DNA from: Bacillota bacterium
GTDB lineage: Bacteria; Bacillota; Negativicutes; CTSoil-072
NCBI GenBank assembly: GCA_017889545.1
Contig: JAGFZV010000024.1
Coordinates: 1-47,964, forward strand
Reading direction: 5' to 3'
Length of the DNA stretch: 47,964 nucleotides
Part shown: in pieces, positions 27,032-42,798 of the stretch
Layout of the letters: each line of letters opens with the position of its first letter
Position numbering within the stretch: the first letter of the stretch is position 1
The notes under the pieces: model-generated
Databases searched by the model: none
Told to the model about the DNA's origin: nothing
What the model saw: the letters and a program-made list of their open reading frames with translations, nothing else
Position numbers and translations under genes: made by a program

Positions 27032-27697
27032 TTACAGTACCCGCCGCGCGCCAATATAACGGGCGCCCCAGTAGCCGCTGCCCAAGCTGGCGATTGCCAC
27101 GCCCTGACTGGAAGTAGCACTGATGAATTGTCCGTTGCCCAAGTAAATGCCACTATGGGAAACGCCTTCCTCATATGTAGAAAAAAACACAAGATCGCCT
27201 GCTTGCAACCGGTTATAAGAAACCGGTTGACCAACACCATACTGTGCATCAGCCGTCCGTGGCAAAATAATACCACTTTGACCATAGACGAAACGGGTAA
27301 ATCCAGAACAATCAAATCCGTCCGGCGTCGTACCGCCGAACACATACGGGACTCCGAGATAACGGGAAGCCGATTGGATCACACGTCTGATCGTTGAGCT
27401 GGAACCGTCACGGCTTGCGGGGATTTCCCGGCCTAATAAGGCGCGATACGTATCCGCTCCGACAACACCATCTGTTTCTAACCCACGATCTTGTTGAAAT
27501 CTCTTAATTGCTTCCGTCGTCAATGAACCGAAGTCGCCATCAGAGCCGCCAGGATGATAACCAAGGGATGCTAACCGCGATTGAATAGCAGTGATCTCTT
27601 CCCCTGAATCACCTTCCCTGTACGCTCCTGCTGCACTGGCGCTGGAAAAAACACCAAACAGCAATACAAAAACCACCAAAACCCGAACCAAATGCAC
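27032..27697 (-). CDS. NlpC/P60 cell-wall endopeptidase with PG-binding domain
   Basis: Secreted peptidoglycan hydrolase, 221 aa. It has a signal peptide (about 1-23, ending SASA-AGA). A PG_binding_1 repeat follows (EEITAIQSRLASLGYHPGGSDGDFG...TDGVVG), then an NlpC/P60 domain with the catalytic DCSGFTRFVYG (Cys near residue 130), the His in GVSHSGIYLG and a later polar residue. It would cleave stem peptides (gamma-D-Glu to diamino acid). The GTG start has GAGGGG eleven bases before it. A c-di-AMP riboswitch precedes the gene, the classical partner for such hydrolases. Confidence 0.93.
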   Translation of the reverse strand: MHLVRVLVVFVLLFGVFSSASAAGAYREGDSGEEITAIQSRLASLGYHPGGSDGDFGSLTTEAIKRFQQDRGLETDGVVGADTYRALLGREIPASRDGSSSTIRRVIQSASRYLGVPYVFGGTTPDGFDCSGFTRFVYGQSGIILPRTADAQYGVGQPVSYNRLQAGDLVFFSTYEEGVSHSGIYLGNGQFISATSSQGVAIASLGSGYWGARYIGARRVL

Positions 27698-27715
27698 CTG
27701 GTAATTAACCCCTCT

Positions 27716-27846
27716 CTTCAGCCTCCGAGGTTAGCTGACGGGTTAGGGTTGAGATACCCCCCATCGTCCTGACAAACATAGCCTTATCAGGAAAATTTCA
27801 CCCCTTATAAATTGGTTCCCCCGTACCCGAGTTGGATTCGGCTTTT
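27716..27846 (-). ncRNA. ydaO/yuaA c-di-AMP riboswitch
   Basis: On the minus strand the segment contains the conserved pieces of the ydaO-yuaA class in order: GGGTACGGGGGAACCAA, GGGGTGAA, GGCTATGTTTGTCAGGAC, GGTATCTCAACCC and ACCCGTCAGCTAACCTCG. It is framed by an AGCC/GGCT closing stem. The RNA senses cyclic di-AMP and normally shuts off cell-wall hydrolase and osmolyte genes when ligand is high (established knowledge). It ends about 20 bases before the NlpC/P60 start, so control could be by termination or by hiding the ribosome site; no separate terminator is obvious. Confidence 0.95.
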
Positions 27847-27885
27847 CTTTGCACTCGACTAGTTTGTACAGTTCGACTGATATTG

Positions 27886-28944: not shown

Positions 28945-29004
28945 AAAAAAATAATAACGTAAAAAAATCGCTGCAGCTGCACAGTCCATTTTCTTACGTT
29001 ATTA
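28945..29004 (-). terminator. Strong terminator of the hydrogenase operon
   Basis: An 11-bp stem (TAATAACGTAA/TTACGTTATTA) extended by an A-rich/T-rich stem and followed on the minus strand by seven T. It begins 2 bases after the TAG stop of the selenoprotein frame, which supports that frame as the true end of the operon. The loop holds GGACTGTGCAGCTGCAGCG, which resembles the core of the dispersed repeat. Confidence 0.9.
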
Positions 29005-29006
29005 CA

Positions 29007-29294
29007 CTAAATAATTTTCCAGCCTTCAATATGAAGCGATTTAAGCCAAAAAAACTTTCGTAGAACAATCTTCAGATCAAACGGGGATTCAAAAGCAACC
29101 GGAACATACACTAAAATTCCATTGATTCTGTTCGCTTTATATTTTTCCGGATTATGCGGCATGCCCAATCGCACGGATGGGCCAAGGTTAATTCGCCCTC
29201 AGCACATTGCCATCCGCTGAGCATCAAAAATGAAAACAGAACCGCCCTTTACCCGGATATATTCAGCAGCATCTTGATCAACAGAAATATCCAC
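29007..29294 (-). CDS. CC/Se-motif family selenoprotein, UGA read as Sec
   Basis: A 95-codon frame that stops at 29199 in normal translation but continues for 63 codons to TAG at 29007 if the UGA is read as selenocysteine. Before the UGA: a short acidic part, then AAEYIRVKGGSVFIFDAQRMAMC. After it: GRINLGPSVRLGMPHNPEKY and a conserved-looking C-terminus ending FFWLKSLHIEGWKII. The Cys-Sec pair followed by GPSVRLG is what I know of the CC/Se motif (seleno)protein family, whose Cys forms have CC here; its function is unknown to me. The start is uncertain: GTG at 29294 (AAGGA 13 bases upstream) or GTG at 29306. A bSECIS-like hairpin follows the UGA. It is the last gene of the hydrogenase operon and ends 2 bases before the terminator. 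Confidence 0.82.
29156..29182 (-). promoter_or_regulatory. Candidate bacterial SECIS element
   Basis: Starting about 16 bases after the UGA, GCCCA pairs with TGGGC, then TC pairs with GA, leaving a single bulged U and a five-base apical loop CGTGC that contains GU. A hairpin with a bulged U and GU in the loop at this distance is the known bSECIS pattern recognised by SelB (from E. coli fdhF). Boundaries are approximate. Confidence 0.55.
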
Positions 29295-29322: not shown

Positions 29323-29703
29323 TTAACCGGACAGTCTCTCTGACAAAGATTTTTGATCCTGCAAAATATCTTCCATTTGCGCTCCCGCCACGTTTGGAAA
29401 TGCACAGATTTCAATCGTTTCCAAAACAGGCTTATGGTTCTGATCATAAAAAACTCCGAACCAAACTCCCGATGTTCCGCTTTCAACCCATTCAGCAGGC
29501 TCGGCCGTATCATTAAGTTCAATTTTTATACTGCCTTGGCCCAAAAAATCACGAATCATTTGCCTTTCTTCGAGAGACAAGGCCATTTTATCCGAAAAAA
29601 TAGTCCATTCTTGCCGATGTTGCAGAAAATTAGTCAAAGCCTGATTAATTTCCTCCAAAACCGCCAGAGCAGCCGGCGACAAACCAGCAGTTGCTTTACT
29701 CAC
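29323..29703 (-). CDS. HupH/HyaF-like hydrogenase assembly protein
   Basis: 126 aa. After a helical N-terminus it has MIRDFLGQGSIKIELNDTAEPAEWVESGTSGVWFG..., which fits the C-terminal HupH domain (LGEGEV-x-W-x-T-x-PGVW-type) of HyaF/HupH hydrogenase accessory proteins. It then has LETIEICAFPNVAGAQ. Such proteins help assemble the small subunit in oxygen-exposed or Tat-exported uptake hydrogenases. It is shorter than usual HupH (about 280 aa) because only one domain is present, a form seen in some anaerobes. It overlaps the protease gene by 8 bases. Confidence 0.75.
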   Translation of the reverse strand: MSKATAGLSPAALAVLEEINQALTNFLQHRQEWTIFSDKMALSLEERQMIRDFLGQGSIKIELNDTAEPAEWVESGTSGVWFGVFYDQNHKPVLETIEICAFPNVAGAQMEDILQDQKSLSERLSG

Positions 29704-30181
29704 GATCTATAACCTCAACTTTCCAGTCAGCCAAAAGAGCCAGTACTTTCGTAATAACCGGTTCAACAGACTGAGCCACAACCGGAGTCAAATCCAGTCC
29801 AACATCAATTACAGCGGGCTGCACTCCCATAACCACCAATTCCTGCAACGGTTTTTCCAAAACATCAAGCGCAGCAAGAACATCCTGAATACCTAAATCA
29901 TGAACCGATATTTTTTCACGAAAATAAGTTTTTACGGCCTCTTTTTCAAACTGATAGATGGAACCCGGCGGCAAACTGCCATCAATGGCATCAATAATAA
30001 TTACCCTATCCGTTCCCAACAAGAATCTCATTAATTCCATACCCAGCGTTCCGCCGTCCAGCACTTCAACATTCTCAGGGAAGGTATAGCGCCGGGTCAT
30101 CTCTTCAACGACCCGAACGCCAACTCCTTCATCCTTCAGTAAAATATTTCCAACACCCAATACCGTAATTTTGTCTGTCAT
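29696..30181 (-). CDS. hyaD: Hydrogenase maturation protease (HyaD/HybD type)
   Basis: A 161-aa endopeptidase that removes the C-terminal tail of the [NiFe] large subunit after nickel insertion. It starts ITVLGVGNILLKDEGVGVRVVEEM, the family signature with the metal-binding Glu near residue 18. LDGGTLGMELMRFL (with Asp) follows near residue 41 and SVHDLGIQDVL (His) near residue 93, which are the nickel-sensing ligands. It overlaps the cytochrome b gene by 4 bases. Confidence 0.94.
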   Translation of the reverse strand: MTDKITVLGVGNILLKDEGVGVRVVEEMTRRYTFPENVEVLDGGTLGMELMRFLLGTDRVIIIDAIDGSLPPGSIYQFEKEAVKTYFREKISVHDLGIQDVLAALDVLEKPLQELVVMGVQPAVIDVGLDLTPVVAQSVEPVITKVLALLADWKVEVIDRE

Positions 30182-30876
30182 TTAATATCTCCAATATCTT
30201 CCGGTTCTTCATGGAAATACTTAACACCGGAAAACATACTTGAGATCTCGCCATTTTTCTCCCTCGCATCCTCCCGAAGTGATAAATATACATGAGCGAT
30301 GGCAAAAATGATAAAAATCCAAGCAATGTAATGGTGAACTAAATGTACCGTATACTCCCCGCCAAACCAAGCATTCACCCTGCCAAATATCGCAGCACCC
30401 CAACCATTGGGATGGATCATATAATACATGGCAAACCCGGTAATCGCTTCAATAAATAGCAGAATATAAACGAACGCATAACTTGCTCTCGCCATTTGGT
30501 TGCGCAAATATGGCTTATGTGTAGAACGAAGAAATGTATAATGCATTGCTACGTCCACTGTTCCAGTCCAATACGCACTTGTCCAAGGCCTCGGAAACAG
30601 CCTGTCGCCTTTATTAATCACAAATCCATAAACCCGTAATATAAACGAAGCGACGAAGATAAACGCTACAACAAAGTGAACGTAGCGCATGGTTTCCATG
30701 GAAAATAGATTGGCCACAGCGAAAGTCGGCTCTTCACTCTGCGTCCCAATATAACCTGGATCACCAATATATAACCCGGTAACAAACAAGGTAATTATCG
30801 ATACCACCATTACCCAATGAAAAATACGAAGTTCCGGGCTAAACACATAATATGGTTTTACACTATGGTCTTTCAT
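30178..30876 (-). CDS. hyaC: [NiFe] hydrogenase cytochrome b subunit (HyaC type)
   Basis: A 232-aa integral membrane di-haem cytochrome b that takes electrons from the hydrogenase small subunit to the quinone pool. Transmembrane stretches are visible near WVMVVSIITLFVTGLYIG, YVHFVVAFIFVASFILRVY, FVYILLFIEAITGFAMYYM and HHYIAWIFIIFAIAHVYLSL. Histidines in helices (FHW, RYVHF, HLVHHY) can act as haem ligands. The frame is open upstream to 30912, but AAAGGAGGG stands 6 bases before the ATG at 30876, so that is the start. It follows the large subunit gene by about 20 bases. Confidence 0.94.
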   Translation of the reverse strand: MKDHSVKPYYVFSPELRIFHWVMVVSIITLFVTGLYIGDPGYIGTQSEEPTFAVANLFSMETMRYVHFVVAFIFVASFILRVYGFVINKGDRLFPRPWTSAYWTGTVDVAMHYTFLRSTHKPYLRNQMARASYAFVYILLFIEAITGFAMYYMIHPNGWGAAIFGRVNAWFGGEYTVHLVHHYIAWIFIIFAIAHVYLSLREDAREKNGEISSMFSGVKYFHEEPEDIGDIK

Positions 30877-30899
30877 AGCTTGCCCTCCTTTCGTTCCTG

Positions 30900-32798
30900 T
30901 TAAAACTTGCAATAAGCATCAGTATGAATGACTGATATTTCTTTACCCTCGGCATCATAAAGGTGGGTAGCGCAAGCAAGACACGGGTCGAAAGAATGAA
31001 TGACTTTGAGGATTTCCAGAGGCTTATCCGCTATTTTGACTTTCGTATCAATCATTGCCGCTTCATAAGCGCCATAACCGGCCTTGCTGTCACGCGGACA
31101 AGCATTCCAGGTCGATGGAACAATCGCTTGGTAATTGGCAATCTTGCCGTCCTTAATAACCACCCAATGGCTCAATCCTCCGCGTGGAGCATCATGCAAG
31201 CCTACTCCTTTGGCTTCTTTTGGCCAGGTAGAAGGATCCCATTTCGCCGTATTGGCAACAGTCGTGTCGCCGGAACGGATATTTTTGACCAATTTTTCGA
31301 AGAAATACTTATTGATATAAGCCGACAATTGCGCATCCAAACCACGTACAGCTGTACGGCCTACAGTAGACAGCATCCAAACTTCCGGCGGTGCATTCAG
31401 CACTTTGGATACCGTGTCAATTTGATCCACAATCATTTTTTCCGCCCAAGTCGGATCCTGGATGACACCTTGTTTCACTTTGGTATAGACAACAATATAG
31501 CGGGCCAAAGGACCGACTTCAGCTGTCTTACCTTTCCATTTCGGCGTTTTCAGCCAAGAATATTTACCGGCTTCATCAAGATATTTCCAATCCTTCTTGG
31601 TTCCTTCCTTGGGTCCGGTAAATTGCGGTTTTGTGATTCCATTCCACGGATGTGCATCTTTCACTGCTTCAGGATACGCATACCAGGAGTGTTCAACGCC
31701 TTCCGCCAAAACATTCGGATCAACCAAATCCTTATTGTCCAGAGGAGAGAATGTCGCTTGCGCAGCTCCTTTGGCAAAATTTTCAACTACCCCATTGGAA
31801 CGGACCAGAAGATTCTTATGGTAACCGCCATTCGATGTACCTGAGTAGGTTTCTTCCGGATAATCTCCAAAACTCAACACACAATTTTTGGCAAGACCGC
31901 CGCCATCCAAATAACCTTTTTGCGCGTAAATATGTCCGATTGCCAAAAGATCCGGCAGGTAGAAATAATTTACAGCGGCAATGCCAAGATTGATCGATTG
32001 ATCGACAGCTGCCAGCCGTTCCGTATTGACTGGCGCATTCATATCATTCATGGAAATGGAACAAGGCATTCCGCCGACAATGTAGTGCGGATGAGGATTT
32101 TTGCCGCCAAATACAAGATGCGAAGTTACCAGTTCACGCTGCCTGTCCAACATATTGAGATAGTGGCTCACTGCCATAAGATGGACTTCCGGCGGCAATA
32201 GCGCATAATCAGGATGATCCCAATAATGAGCGGCAAAAATACCCAACTGACCACTCTCAACAATTTTTTTGACTTTCGACTGTACCGCGGCATAATAGAC
32301 AGTAGTCGCTTTGGGGAAATCTTTGGGATATGCATCCGTATCCAACGTTACCGGTCCCGACAGTGGCAAAGCATATTTTTCGAGAACCGTGTTTTGTAAA
32401 GCCGCAGTAGCTGCCGGATCCGCTTTCAGCGCTTCTACCGGACTGACCCAATCCAAGCCATGCAAATGATAGAAATGAATTAGATGATCCTGCACCGTTT
32501 GTGAAGCCGACATAATATTACGTATATAATTTGCATTTTTAGGAATTTCTATTCCCAAGGCATCCTCAACCGCCCGCAAAGAGGCCAAAGCATGTACAGT
32601 AGTGCAAACACCGCAGATGCGTTGTACGAACATCCACGCATCGCGAGGATCACGATCTTTACAAATCAATTCAATTCCCCGCCAGGCAGTACCGCTGGAC
32701 AACGCATCCGTAACTTTTCCAGATGATTCATCTATGTTTAACTCAACCCGTAAATGCCCCTCAAGCCGATTGACAGGGTCAACAACAATACGCTTCAT
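30900..32798 (-). CDS. hyaB: [NiFe] hydrogenase large subunit
   Basis: Catalytic subunit of a membrane-bound uptake hydrogenase, 632 aa. The N-terminal nickel ligands lie in RICGVCTTVHALAS near residue 61, the C-terminal ones in DPCLACATHLYDAEG near residue 607. The 18 residues or so after the His of DPCLACATH would be cut off by HyaD. All four metal ligands are Cys; no selenocysteine is used here. It is exported folded with the Tat-signal small subunit. GGAGGACAC stands before the ATG. Confidence 0.97.
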   Translation of the reverse strand: MKRIVVDPVNRLEGHLRVELNIDESSGKVTDALSSGTAWRGIELICKDRDPRDAWMFVQRICGVCTTVHALASLRAVEDALGIEIPKNANYIRNIMSASQTVQDHLIHFYHLHGLDWVSPVEALKADPAATAALQNTVLEKYALPLSGPVTLDTDAYPKDFPKATTVYYAAVQSKVKKIVESGQLGIFAAHYWDHPDYALLPPEVHLMAVSHYLNMLDRQRELVTSHLVFGGKNPHPHYIVGGMPCSISMNDMNAPVNTERLAAVDQSINLGIAAVNYFYLPDLLAIGHIYAQKGYLDGGGLAKNCVLSFGDYPEETYSGTSNGGYHKNLLVRSNGVVENFAKGAAQATFSPLDNKDLVDPNVLAEGVEHSWYAYPEAVKDAHPWNGITKPQFTGPKEGTKKDWKYLDEAGKYSWLKTPKWKGKTAEVGPLARYIVVYTKVKQGVIQDPTWAEKMIVDQIDTVSKVLNAPPEVWMLSTVGRTAVRGLDAQLSAYINKYFFEKLVKNIRSGDTTVANTAKWDPSTWPKEAKGVGLHDAPRGGLSHWVVIKDGKIANYQAIVPSTWNACPRDSKAGYGAYEAAMIDTKVKIADKPLEILKVIHSFDPCLACATHLYDAEGKEISVIHTDAYCKF

Positions 32799-32825: not shown

Positions 32826-33905
32826 TTACTTATTCTCGTTCGATTCATGTTTCTTATGCTGAACCACTGATGCCACTCCATGAGCAACAACCCCGGCAGC
32901 AGCGACGCCGGCGGCAATCATACCCACCTTGTCAGCAGTGGCGATGGTATTGGGCACAGGAATATTGGGCAGTCGTGCATAGAAAGGATCATTATCCCAG
33001 AAATTATTTGATGCGCAAGCCACGCAAGGCGCACCCGATTGAATAGGATATGACAATCCATTCCACCAACGCATATTGCCGCAAGAGTTATATGCTTCAG
33101 GGCCGCGGCAGCCTACTTTATACAAGCACCAGCCAGCCTTTGCCCCTGCATCATCGAATTTTTCGACAAACATCCCGGAATCAAAGAATGCTCTCCGATA
33201 ACAAGTATCATGAATACGATTGCCATAAAACTGTTTTGGCCTGCCTTGTGTATCGAGCGGCGGAATCTGACCAAACAGCACATAATGCATAACAACACCG
33301 GTGAGAACTTCAGGAATAGGCGGACAGCCGGGAACCTTAATAATTGGCTTACCACTAATAACATCACTGACGGAGACTGATTTCGTAGGATTTGGCTTGG
33401 CAGCCTGAACTCCTCCCCATGCAGCGCAGGAACCAACCTCAATAATGGCCGCAGCACCCTTAGCAGCCTCTTTCAAGTTTTCAATGAAAGGTTTCCCGCC
33501 GACCATGCAATAAGTTCCGTCATCAAGCAGAGAAACTGCACCCTCAACGGCCAGCAAATATTGGCCTTTATATTTTTGCATGATATTTTGAAGATGATGC
33601 TCCAATGGCTCGCCTGCTGCAGCGGACAGCACATCCATGTAGTCAAGGGAAATCATGTTCAAGACCACATCGGAAGCCAACGGTGATTGCGACCGGATAA
33701 AGGCCTCATCACACCCTGTACATTCGTGGCCGTGAAGCCAAATAACAGGTGGCAACGTTTTATTTTCTGCCGCATTGACCACTTGGGGCAGCATAGATGG
33801 TGACAGACCTAACATCCCCGTCAATGCTACACACGTTTTTACAAAACTTCTTCGGCTCAAATTACGTTTTTGAAACAAATCCCACAAAGAATTTTTCTCT
33901 TTCAT
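32826..33905 (-). CDS. hyaA: [NiFe] hydrogenase small subunit, Tat-exported
   Basis: Iron-sulfur subunit of 359 aa. The Tat signal is near the start (NLSRRSFVKTCVALTGMLGL, ending at VNA-AEN). Proximal cluster ligands lie in HGHECTGCDEAF and GSCAAWGG, with PGCPPIPEVLTGVV. Further cluster residues follow in HDTCYRR, GWCLYKVGCRGPEAYNSC and GAPCVACASNNFWD. A C-terminal hydrophobic stretch (VGMIAAGVAAAGVVAHGVASVV) anchors it next to the cytochrome b. A GTG at 33920 is possible, but GAGGGGGG lies 6 bases before the ATG at 33905. The leader carries a dispersed repeat. Confidence 0.96.
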   Translation of the reverse strand: MKEKNSLWDLFQKRNLSRRSFVKTCVALTGMLGLSPSMLPQVVNAAENKTLPPVIWLHGHECTGCDEAFIRSQSPLASDVVLNMISLDYMDVLSAAAGEPLEHHLQNIMQKYKGQYLLAVEGAVSLLDDGTYCMVGGKPFIENLKEAAKGAAAIIEVGSCAAWGGVQAAKPNPTKSVSVSDVISGKPIIKVPGCPPIPEVLTGVVMHYVLFGQIPPLDTQGRPKQFYGNRIHDTCYRRAFFDSGMFVEKFDDAGAKAGWCLYKVGCRGPEAYNSCGNMRWWNGLSYPIQSGAPCVACASNNFWDNDPFYARLPNIPVPNTIATADKVGMIAAGVAAAGVVAHGVASVVQHKKHESNENK

Positions 33906-33935
33906 AGATACCCCCCTCACTTCAATTCAAAAAAA

Positions 33936-34142: not shown

Positions 34143-35141
34143 TCATCTCAAGATCTGTGTTTTGCCTTTTAACAAGCATTCAAAACAAAATTTCTGGTCG
34201 GCGACCGGTTGAAAAAGTTGACCACAGCCGCTGCACCGCGGCAAACGAATCGCGGCAATCTCATAAAATTCCAACTGCCGGGCATCCGTCAGGGAAGATG
34301 CTCTCCGGGGGCAATTACCGACACAAACGCCGCAGCCATTACAGGCCATCGGGTCATGAATAAAGTGCAATACACCTCTTTCTTCCTGCGTTTTAATCGC
34401 TTTTTGCGGACAAATCTTGGCGCACAGGCCACAAGCCTGACAAGCAGTATGGTCAATGACGATACTGCGAAAAACCTGCTGCTGGATTGCTGACGGCGAT
34501 AAATAACTTTGAAGGGCATAACGGCGAAATAAATCCCGCTTGGGCAAACGTTCCGGAATTGAAGTGACGGGTCCCATTGCTTCGCGTACCGTATCGACCG
34601 TAGCCCCCAAAAGTTGAGAAAAAAAATCCCGCCGTGATATTGATTTTGAACATTGCGAATTTTCCCGAACCGGTTCTCCCTGTTTGATCAGAGGTCTTTC
34701 TTTGGCTGCCAAAAGTTCATTTGTTTTTGCAAGCACATTCTGTAAATGGGCCTCTACTCCAGGTTTACAAGCCGGACAGCCACGGTCATCAATAACAACC
34801 TGTCTTCCTCCAGCAGCAAACACCAATAACAATCTGGCATCGAAAAATCCAAGACATGGCCACGGACTCGCAGTATCTTGGCGTTGACAGGAAATACTGA
34901 TGGCTCCAGGATGATCTTCCAACCATTTTTCAATAGAGCATTCTGTATACGTTGTACTGAAAATCGCTTCCCGCGGACAACTTGACTGACATACGCCACA
35001 ATCATTACACAGGCTCGCATCAATCGTAAAATTTTCACGGATGCATTGCAACGGGCAACTTTGCCTGCAAAGATCACAATGCATTTTTTGATAATTGCTA
35101 TTTATGCATAGATCCCAATTAATCTGCAAATTGGCAGCCAT
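34143..35141 (-). CDS. Multi-cluster 4Fe-4S ferredoxin-type protein
   Basis: 332 aa with several cysteine clusters. CDLCRQSCPLQC (residues 19-30) and LCNDCGVCQSSCPREAI (about 40-56) form an N-terminal pair. CQACGLCAKICPQKAI near residue 234 and CNGCGVCVGNCPRRAS near residue 264 form two 4Fe-4S sites. A terminal CSGCG...CFEC pair near residue 298 could bind zinc or iron. The middle part (about 75-140, with SCQRQDTASPWPCLGFFDARLLL and CPACKPG) resembles the small cluster domain of hydrogenase-associated electron carriers. A SRRDFFSQL segment near residue 167 looks like a Tat motif but is internal. Position between the hydrogenase and tatA suggests an electron-transfer partner (inference). Confidence 0.75.
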   Translation of the reverse strand: MAANLQINWDLCINSNYQKMHCDLCRQSCPLQCIRENFTIDASLCNDCGVCQSSCPREAIFSTTYTECSIEKWLEDHPGAISISCQRQDTASPWPCLGFFDARLLLVFAAGGRQVVIDDRGCPACKPGVEAHLQNVLAKTNELLAAKERPLIKQGEPVRENSQCSKSISRRDFFSQLLGATVDTVREAMGPVTSIPERLPKRDLFRRYALQSYLSPSAIQQQVFRSIVIDHTACQACGLCAKICPQKAIKTQEERGVLHFIHDPMACNGCGVCVGNCPRRASSLTDARQLEFYEIAAIRLPRCSGCGQLFQPVADQKFCFECLLKGKTQILR

Positions 35142-38215: not shown

Positions 38216-38262
38216 AAAAGAGAACTTGCCGTTCAATGTTCTCGAACGGCAAGTTCTCTTTT
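38216..38262 (-). terminator. rnpB terminator
   Basis: A 19-bp perfect stem from AAAAGAGAACTTGCCGTTC (38216-38234) and its complement (38244-38262), 9-base loop, T run on the minus strand. It starts directly after the last paired base of RNase P RNA. Confidence 0.9.
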
Positions 38263-38612
38263 GTGAGTCATCAATAAGCCGAGTTCTGTCCCGCATAACG
38301 GTGACGATCATTTATCTGGGCCGACAGTTGCCTGCCGGCTCTAGCGACTCAACCCGGAAGGTTCAGCGGGCCGCATCATCCCTTCCCTATTCGGTCTTGC
38401 TCCGGGTGGGGTTTACCTAGCCAGCCAGTCACCTGGCTGCTGGTGCGCTCTTACCGCACCGTTCCATCCTTACCGGTTAACCCGGCGGTCTACATTTCTG
38501 TGGCACTTTCCCTAAGGTCGCCCTCGCTGGGCATTACCCAGCACCCTGCCCTATGGAGCTCGGACTTTCCTCGAATGCTGCGCAAGCATCCGCGATCATC
38601 TTTCCGACTCAC
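38263..38612 (-). ncRNA. rnpB: RNase P RNA, class A
   Basis: Catalytic RNA of RNase P, which trims the 5' end of tRNA precursors. The minus strand contains the conserved cores: GAGGAAAGTCCGAGCTCC near the 5' side, AGGGCAGGGTGCTGGGTAA, CCTTAGGGAAAGTGCCACAGAAA, AAACCCCACCCGGAGCAAGACC and the closing GACAGAACTCGGCTTA. The outer stem GTGAGTC/GACTCAC sets the ends used here, about 350 bases; the primary transcript starts some 20 bases earlier. Confidence 0.97.
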
Positions 38613-42420: not shown

Positions 42421-42496
<76 letters not shown>

Positions 42497-42523
42497 GAAC
42501 TTGCAAAATATTCTAATAGGGAA

Positions 42524-42598
42524 TGGTGACCCGTGGGGGATTCGAACCCCCGAAGCCGCCGTGAAAGGGCGGTGACTTAACCGCTTGTCAAACGGGCC
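42524..42598 (-). tRNA. tRNA-Glu (anticodon UUC)
   Basis: 75 bases. Acceptor GGCCCGT with ACGGGTC, anticodon stem CCGCC/GGCGG around CTTTCAC, T-arm GGGGGTTCGAATCCCCC, CCA encoded. The anticodon TTC assigns it to glutamate. Confidence 0.96.
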
Positions 42599-42607
42599 AT
42601 ATATAAT

Positions 42608-42682
42608 TGGTGGGCCCACCTGGGATCGAACCAGGGACCAGCCGGTTATGAGCCGGCTGCTCTACCGCTGAGCTATAGGCCC
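42608..42682 (-). tRNA. tRNA with CAU anticodon (Met or Ile2)
   Basis: 75 bases, GGGCCTA acceptor, anticodon stem GCCGG/CCGGC around CTCATAA, T-loop TTCGATC, CCA encoded. The CTCATAA loop context resembles Ile2, in which the C of CAU is changed to lysidine. Sequence alone does not exclude elongator Met. Confidence 0.9.
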
Positions 42683-42722
42683 TTAAGATAGGAAAACAGG
42701 TTTCCCCCCATACTTCACAAAT

Positions 42723-42798
42723 TGGCTCCTCGAGTAGGACTCGAACCTACAACAACTCGGTTAACAGCCGAGTGCTCTACCGATTGAGCTATCGAGGA
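42723..42798 (-). tRNA. tRNA-Asn (anticodon GUU)
   Basis: 76 bases, TCCTCGA acceptor, D-arm GCTC...GAGC, anticodon stem CTCGG/CCGAG around CTGTTAA, T-arm GTAGGTTCGAGTCCTAC, CCA encoded. First tRNA of the cluster, directly after the promoter. Confidence 0.97.

Follow-up and report, generated by a model that had tools for sequence, protein, structure and literature searches.

Introduction

NF041239 (Moor_selen_rel), the NCBIfam "CC/Se motif family (seleno)protein", is defined by a profile with a curated cut-off of 40 bits. The family appears in Table 1 of a 2026 review as 'CC/Se motif family selenoprotein', predicted in Moorella thermoacetica and with the motif CxxU (PMC13188914). The accessible part of that review does not mention a hydrogenase operon context for NF041239, and the accessible literature on the family gives no function. 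The same part of the review describes a model of the bacterial selenocysteine (Sec) insertion element (bSECIS), with a G among the first two nucleotides of the apical loop, a spacing of 16-37 nt, a stem of 4-16 bp, and a minimum free energy of at most -7.5 (PMC13188914). Two other systems bear on the locus described here. In [NiFeSe] hydrogenases, selenocysteine and hydrogenase are likewise encoded in one operon, and Sec is a nickel ligand in the large subunit. HesB/IscA/SufA carriers (PF01521) are iron-sulfur proteins with a C-terminal CxC motif.

The window, a stretch of 47,964 nucleotides from a member of the Negativicutes, contains a predicted selenoprotein gene that resembles each of these systems in part. 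Its product shares with NF041239 a full-length match above the cut-off and the alternation of Cys and Sec, but its motif is an adjacent Cys-Sec pair (CU) instead of the CxxU given in the portion of the review available. In contrast to the [NiFeSe] enzymes, the hydrogenase large subunit HyaB has Cys, and Sec would be located in a separate small accessory protein. The HesB/IscA/SufA carriers provide the best match to the modelled fold, with the Cys-Sec pair placed near IscA Cys35, but the C-terminal CxC is absent from the selenoprotein and Pfam does not detect the window protein. The family itself was already catalogued. The conservation of the operon with a hydrogenase, the test of the SECIS across the family, and the predicted fold resembling IscA are apparently new; the conserved operon leads to a concrete assay and the fold to a concrete hypothesis.

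Reading frame and family assignment

Comparative sequence analysis suggests, with a probability of about 0.95, that the gene encodes a genuine NF041239-family selenoprotein in which the UGA at 29201-29199 is read as Sec. The original prediction described a minus-strand frame that reaches ...AQRMAMC, encounters a TGA, and continues for 63 codons to a TAG followed closely by a strong terminator, and every element of this description was recovered (Table 1). There are 63 sense codons between the UGA and the TAG at 29009-29007, the readthrough translation has 95 residues with Sec32 adjoining Cys31, and the terminator hairpin begins 1-2 nt past the TAG. This hairpin was not called by a consensus terminator scanner because its loop is too long for the scanner. 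There are two candidate start codons, GTG 29294, which the original prediction used, and the in-frame GTG 29306, and the choice between them is uncertain; in hydrogenase-linked relatives, an ATG start aligns roughly with GTG 29294. The chance of 63 consecutive open codons is about 5% [(61/64)^63], such that the open frame alone is weak evidence and homology has to carry the case for a selenoprotein.

The readthrough protein matches NF041239 with 78.5 bits (E 3.1e-22) from residue 2 to 92 of 95 and from profile position 2 to 91 of 91, thus crossing the UGA, and no other NCBIfam family and no Pfam family matched it at E up to 1. All 46 aligned relatives match NF041239, and no other family convincingly. 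In the 46-row alignment, motif column 32 is invariantly Cys or Sec, and Cys and UGA alternate there. The proposed identity as a Cys-Sec protein of the CC/Se family, with Cys homologues aligning across the U, is thus borne out by the profile match and the homologues, and additionally by the Sec machinery and the bSECIS hairpin described below. The description of the gene as hidden was only partly right, since NCBI's NF041239 had already been built for this family, although gene callers that end at the UGA do lose such genes, including four in the source genome.

The source genome (3.27 Mb, 50 contigs, completeness about 96%) contains five NF041239 regions, four of which have exactly one TGA. 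Members were found in 56 of 380 genomes in a class-level survey and in 90 of 398 genomes in a phylum sample, and in both sets many have exactly one TGA. These counts are from whole-genome profile searches, which were used in place of a direct protein search of the genome contigs; the latter method reaches close relatives only and returned no relative. On a protein tree of the family, at least 11 changes between the Cys and Sec states are needed; the tree is based on few columns and does not firmly place the window copy.

Table 1. Features of the predicted selenoprotein gene and the adjoining hydrogenase operon (window coordinates).
Feature	Position	Strand	Details
Intrinsic terminator directly 3' of TAG	28945..29006	-	Fold -24.2 kcal/mol, z -5.33, then U-tract
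CC/Se motif family selenoprotein gene (predicted)	29007..29294	-	GTG to TAG; readthrough translation and NF041239 match
bSECIS hairpin (predicted) CCCAUC-CGUGC-GAUUGGG	29164..29181	-	Extra G-C pair 29182/29163
In-frame UGA, predicted selenocysteine, residue 32	29199..29201	-	Column invariant Cys/Sec, 46 aligned homologues
HupH_C-domain hydrogenase expression protein, directly upstream of selenoprotein gene	29323..29703	-	PF04809 E 2e-21
HyaD/HybD-type hydrogenase maturation endopeptidase	29696..30181	-	TIGR00140 164.6 bits
Hydrogenase cytochrome b subunit (HyaC)	30178..30912	-	TIGR02125 144.6 bits
[NiFe] hydrogenase large subunit (HyaB)	30900..32798	-	PF00374; C-terminal DPCLACATH
[NiFe] hydrogenase small subunit (HyaA), Tat signal	32826..33920	-	TIGR00391 456.8 bits, TIGR01409
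[4Fe-4S] ferredoxin-type protein	34143..35141	-	Fer4 domains; heads cluster in relatives too

Hydrogenase operon and putative function

The selenoprotein gene ends an operon for a membrane-bound uptake [NiFe] hydrogenase. The HyaB frame of this operon has no internal UGA, and its C-terminal motif has Cys, not Sec. The order HyaA-HyaB-HyaC-HyaD-HupH_C-selenoprotein is present in seven genomes from three families (that of the window, G306, G307, G308, G309, G310, and G312). The hydrogenase-linked copies are always of the UGA form, on the same strand, adjacent to HupH_C, and last in the order. In G306 and G307, the start ATG of the selenoprotein gene and the stop codon of HupH_C overlap (ATGA); at the G306 locus, no ferredoxin-type gene appeared up to the end of the contig. 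Given that this layout is conserved in seven genomes, the selenoprotein is probably co-transcribed with the hydrogenase. The arrangement is not universal, however. Among the 55 class genomes carrying this HupH_C, the selenoprotein gene is next to the HupH_C gene in 7 and absent from that place in 48. This count draws on inspection of 30 loci; the other genomes have a HupH_C match and no NF041239 member in the class survey. The hydrogenase loci of named Sporomusa, Veillonella, Propionispira, and Pectinatus also contain no selenoprotein gene. Hydrogenases of this type can therefore do without the selenoprotein.

An AlphaFold2 model of the selenoprotein is small and beta-rich (pLDDT 87). Foldseek comparison with the PDB gave SufA/IscA as the only plausible match (probability 0.91-0.99, TM 0.49-0.60, E about 0.03), and no solved structure matched in a sequence search. 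The modelled fold thus most resembles the HesB/IscA/SufA iron-sulfur carriers. At the sequence level, PF01521 matches 5 of the 46 family members weakly (best 9.5e-5) and does not match the window protein at E up to 1, while TIGR01911, the HesB-like selenoprotein family, matches neither the window protein nor its 46 relatives. An hhalign comparison of the family with E. coli IscA gave 10% probability over 31 columns; this low-probability alignment places the Cys-Sec pair at IscA Cys35-Ser36. The set of three cluster-ligand Cys residues, two of them in a C-terminal CxC, was not found in the window protein, which ends in LHIEGWKII and has no Cys there. A search of the source genome for a canonical IscA/HesB (PF01521) gave none.

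On an IscA-like scaffold, the Cys-Sec pair would be located near the first cluster-ligand Cys position of A-type carriers, where it might bind a soft metal or an iron-sulfur cluster, or cycle as a selenenyl-sulfide. The selenoprotein could then help to mature or protect the hydrogenase, with the iron-sulfur small subunit as the likeliest target because the HupH_C gene is adjacent. This role for the Cys-Sec pair is proposed tentatively, at odds well below even. The narrower suggestion of a Sec-armed IscA-like carrier dedicated to one uptake [NiFe] hydrogenase type is unlikely as it stands; if true, the Cys-Sec site would deliver or repair an iron-sulfur cluster, or handle nickel, for a hydrogenase that itself contains no selenium.

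The main rival to a hydrogenase role is that the selenoprotein is a general thiol or soft-metal redox protein and that its place behind the hydrogenase reflects hitch-hiking, an explanation to which we give somewhat less than an even chance. Family members are also present beside ArsR/ArsP permease, radical SAM-like, or nuo genes and, on the strand opposite to them, near lar genes, and most genomes with the hydrogenase are without the selenoprotein, as expected if the association is incidental. For instance, in G311 the same selenoprotein gene follows a complex I-like (nuo) antiporter subunit gene and not a hydrogenase, and further members are beside unrelated genes. The four f27 genomes also form a single clade, and the tree gives the window row no firm place with them. 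Hitch-hiking is, however, harder to reconcile with an adjacency that recurs in three families, always on the same strand and with UGA, and with the ATGA overlap of G306 and G307.

Other branches of the family have neighbourhoods of their own. Five members (L093, L096, L110, L124, and L056) form a separate branch with the pattern GGVUSGGxCG...PSVRLGKP and are directly beside ArsR regulators, with ArsP-type permeases on the same strand in most; this suggests an association with the handling of soft metals or organoarsenic compounds. A mostly Cys branch (L075, L076, L079, L082, and L112-L114) is located 1.3-4 kb from LarB/LarC/LarE-like genes (LarC was confirmed as PF01969), which are on the opposite strand, and a conserved unknown 159-aa protein is encoded between them. 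A nickel theme drawn from this neighbourhood was considered and dropped, and the lar neighbourhood was not used as evidence because the genes are distant and on the opposite strand.

Predicted selenocysteine insertion and alternative readings of the UGA

Looking for selA, selB, selC, and selD elsewhere in the genome had been suggested as a check of the original prediction, and all four are present. A tRNA-Sec with a UCA anticodon is encoded at C3:230-327, SelA (552 bits) and SelB (362 bits) are encoded side by side on contig C38, and SelD (400 bits), also on C38, has its own in-frame UGA in SGGUAAK.

The predicted bSECIS hairpin has a stem of 6-7 bp and an apical loop of CGUGC located 23 nt from the UGA. 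Alone it has moderate stability (-8.6 to -8.7 kcal/mol) and near-equal registers. With G as the second loop base and U as the third, it falls within the bSECIS constraints quoted in the accessible part of the review, while the spacing of 38-41 nt in a longer-insert branch of the family is slightly beyond the range published there. UGA members have CCCRUC-CGUGC-GAYUGGG or close variants 3' of the UGA. All six pairs are intact in 42 of 44 UGA members and are mostly lost in Cys members. Where the peptide PSVRLG is identical, the hairpin is intact in 31/31 UGA members vs 2/9 Cys members; random synonymous coding of PSVRLG would be expected to give it in 2.8% of cases. The Fisher value for UGA vs Cys members (2e-6) is only indicative because related sequences are not independent. 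Two pairs are changed on both sides (G-C to A-U and U-A to G-C), and sliding one strand of the hairpin causes the pairing to collapse. Folding-energy z-scores for the region 3' of the UGA hardly distinguish Sec members from Cys members (mean -0.74 vs -0.32), in contrast to exact-hairpin pairing, which does separate them. One Cys member (L121) still has the identical hairpin, as a recent change from Sec to Cys would predict.

Since the hairpin is mostly lost in Cys members with the same peptide, GPSVRLG conservation is tied to the RNA hairpin. The GPSVRLG-like stretch noted in the original prediction therefore largely mirrors, at the protein level, the SECIS hairpin of the RNA and is not a pure protein signature. 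In this family the SECIS hairpin shapes the protein, and PSVRLG codons drift once Sec has changed to Cys. In the window, SelB with Sec-tRNA(Sec) would bind the hairpin at 29181-29164, and Sec would then be inserted at residue 32, next to Cys31.

It is very improbable that the UGA is a true stop and that what follows the hydrogenase operon is a pseudogene cut short or a non-coding remnant. A shorter ORF does end at the TGA, the start codon is weakly defined, and a sister copy in the same genome does look frameshift-broken. However, the NF041239 match is full-length across the UGA, divergence is third-position-biased on both sides of it, dozens of genomes have UGA in the same column, and a conserved SECIS is accompanied by complete Sec machinery. 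The sister copy is the fifth NF041239 region of the source genome (G000:C20:49589-49744; L059:9584-9751) and is split over two frames (VERPSGLUSGG / SVRLGQPSDNYD...), and it differs in length close to the sequence of the SECIS hairpin; a DUF2703 gene with a Cys-rich N-terminus follows it. Its sequence suggests either a pseudogene produced by a frameshift or a mistake in the assembly.

A reading of the UGA as Trp or another residue by a variant code or suppressor would also explain a frame that is open through it, but is scarcely credible, as TGA terminates 8 of 19 neighbouring genes and is therefore an ordinary stop outside selenoprotein genes, homologues have Cys and not Trp in the UGA column, and tRNA-Sec and SECIS are present.

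Several additional features were observed in the genome and the window. A CRISPR-type array on contig C31 of the source genome (G000:C31:28300-31500; L057:11300-14500) has about 48 copies of the 30-nt repeat ATTTACATTCCAGTATGGTCAGATTAAAAC, separated by spacers of 35-38 nt, and is about 3 kb from another copy of the selenoprotein. The window also contains ordinary RNA features: a c-di-AMP (ydaO) riboswitch at 27705-27853 (minus strand), preceding a gene for a cell-wall hydrolase of the NlpC/P60 type (27032-27697), a class A RNase P RNA at 38260-38611 (minus strand), and four tRNA genes grouped at 42424-42798.
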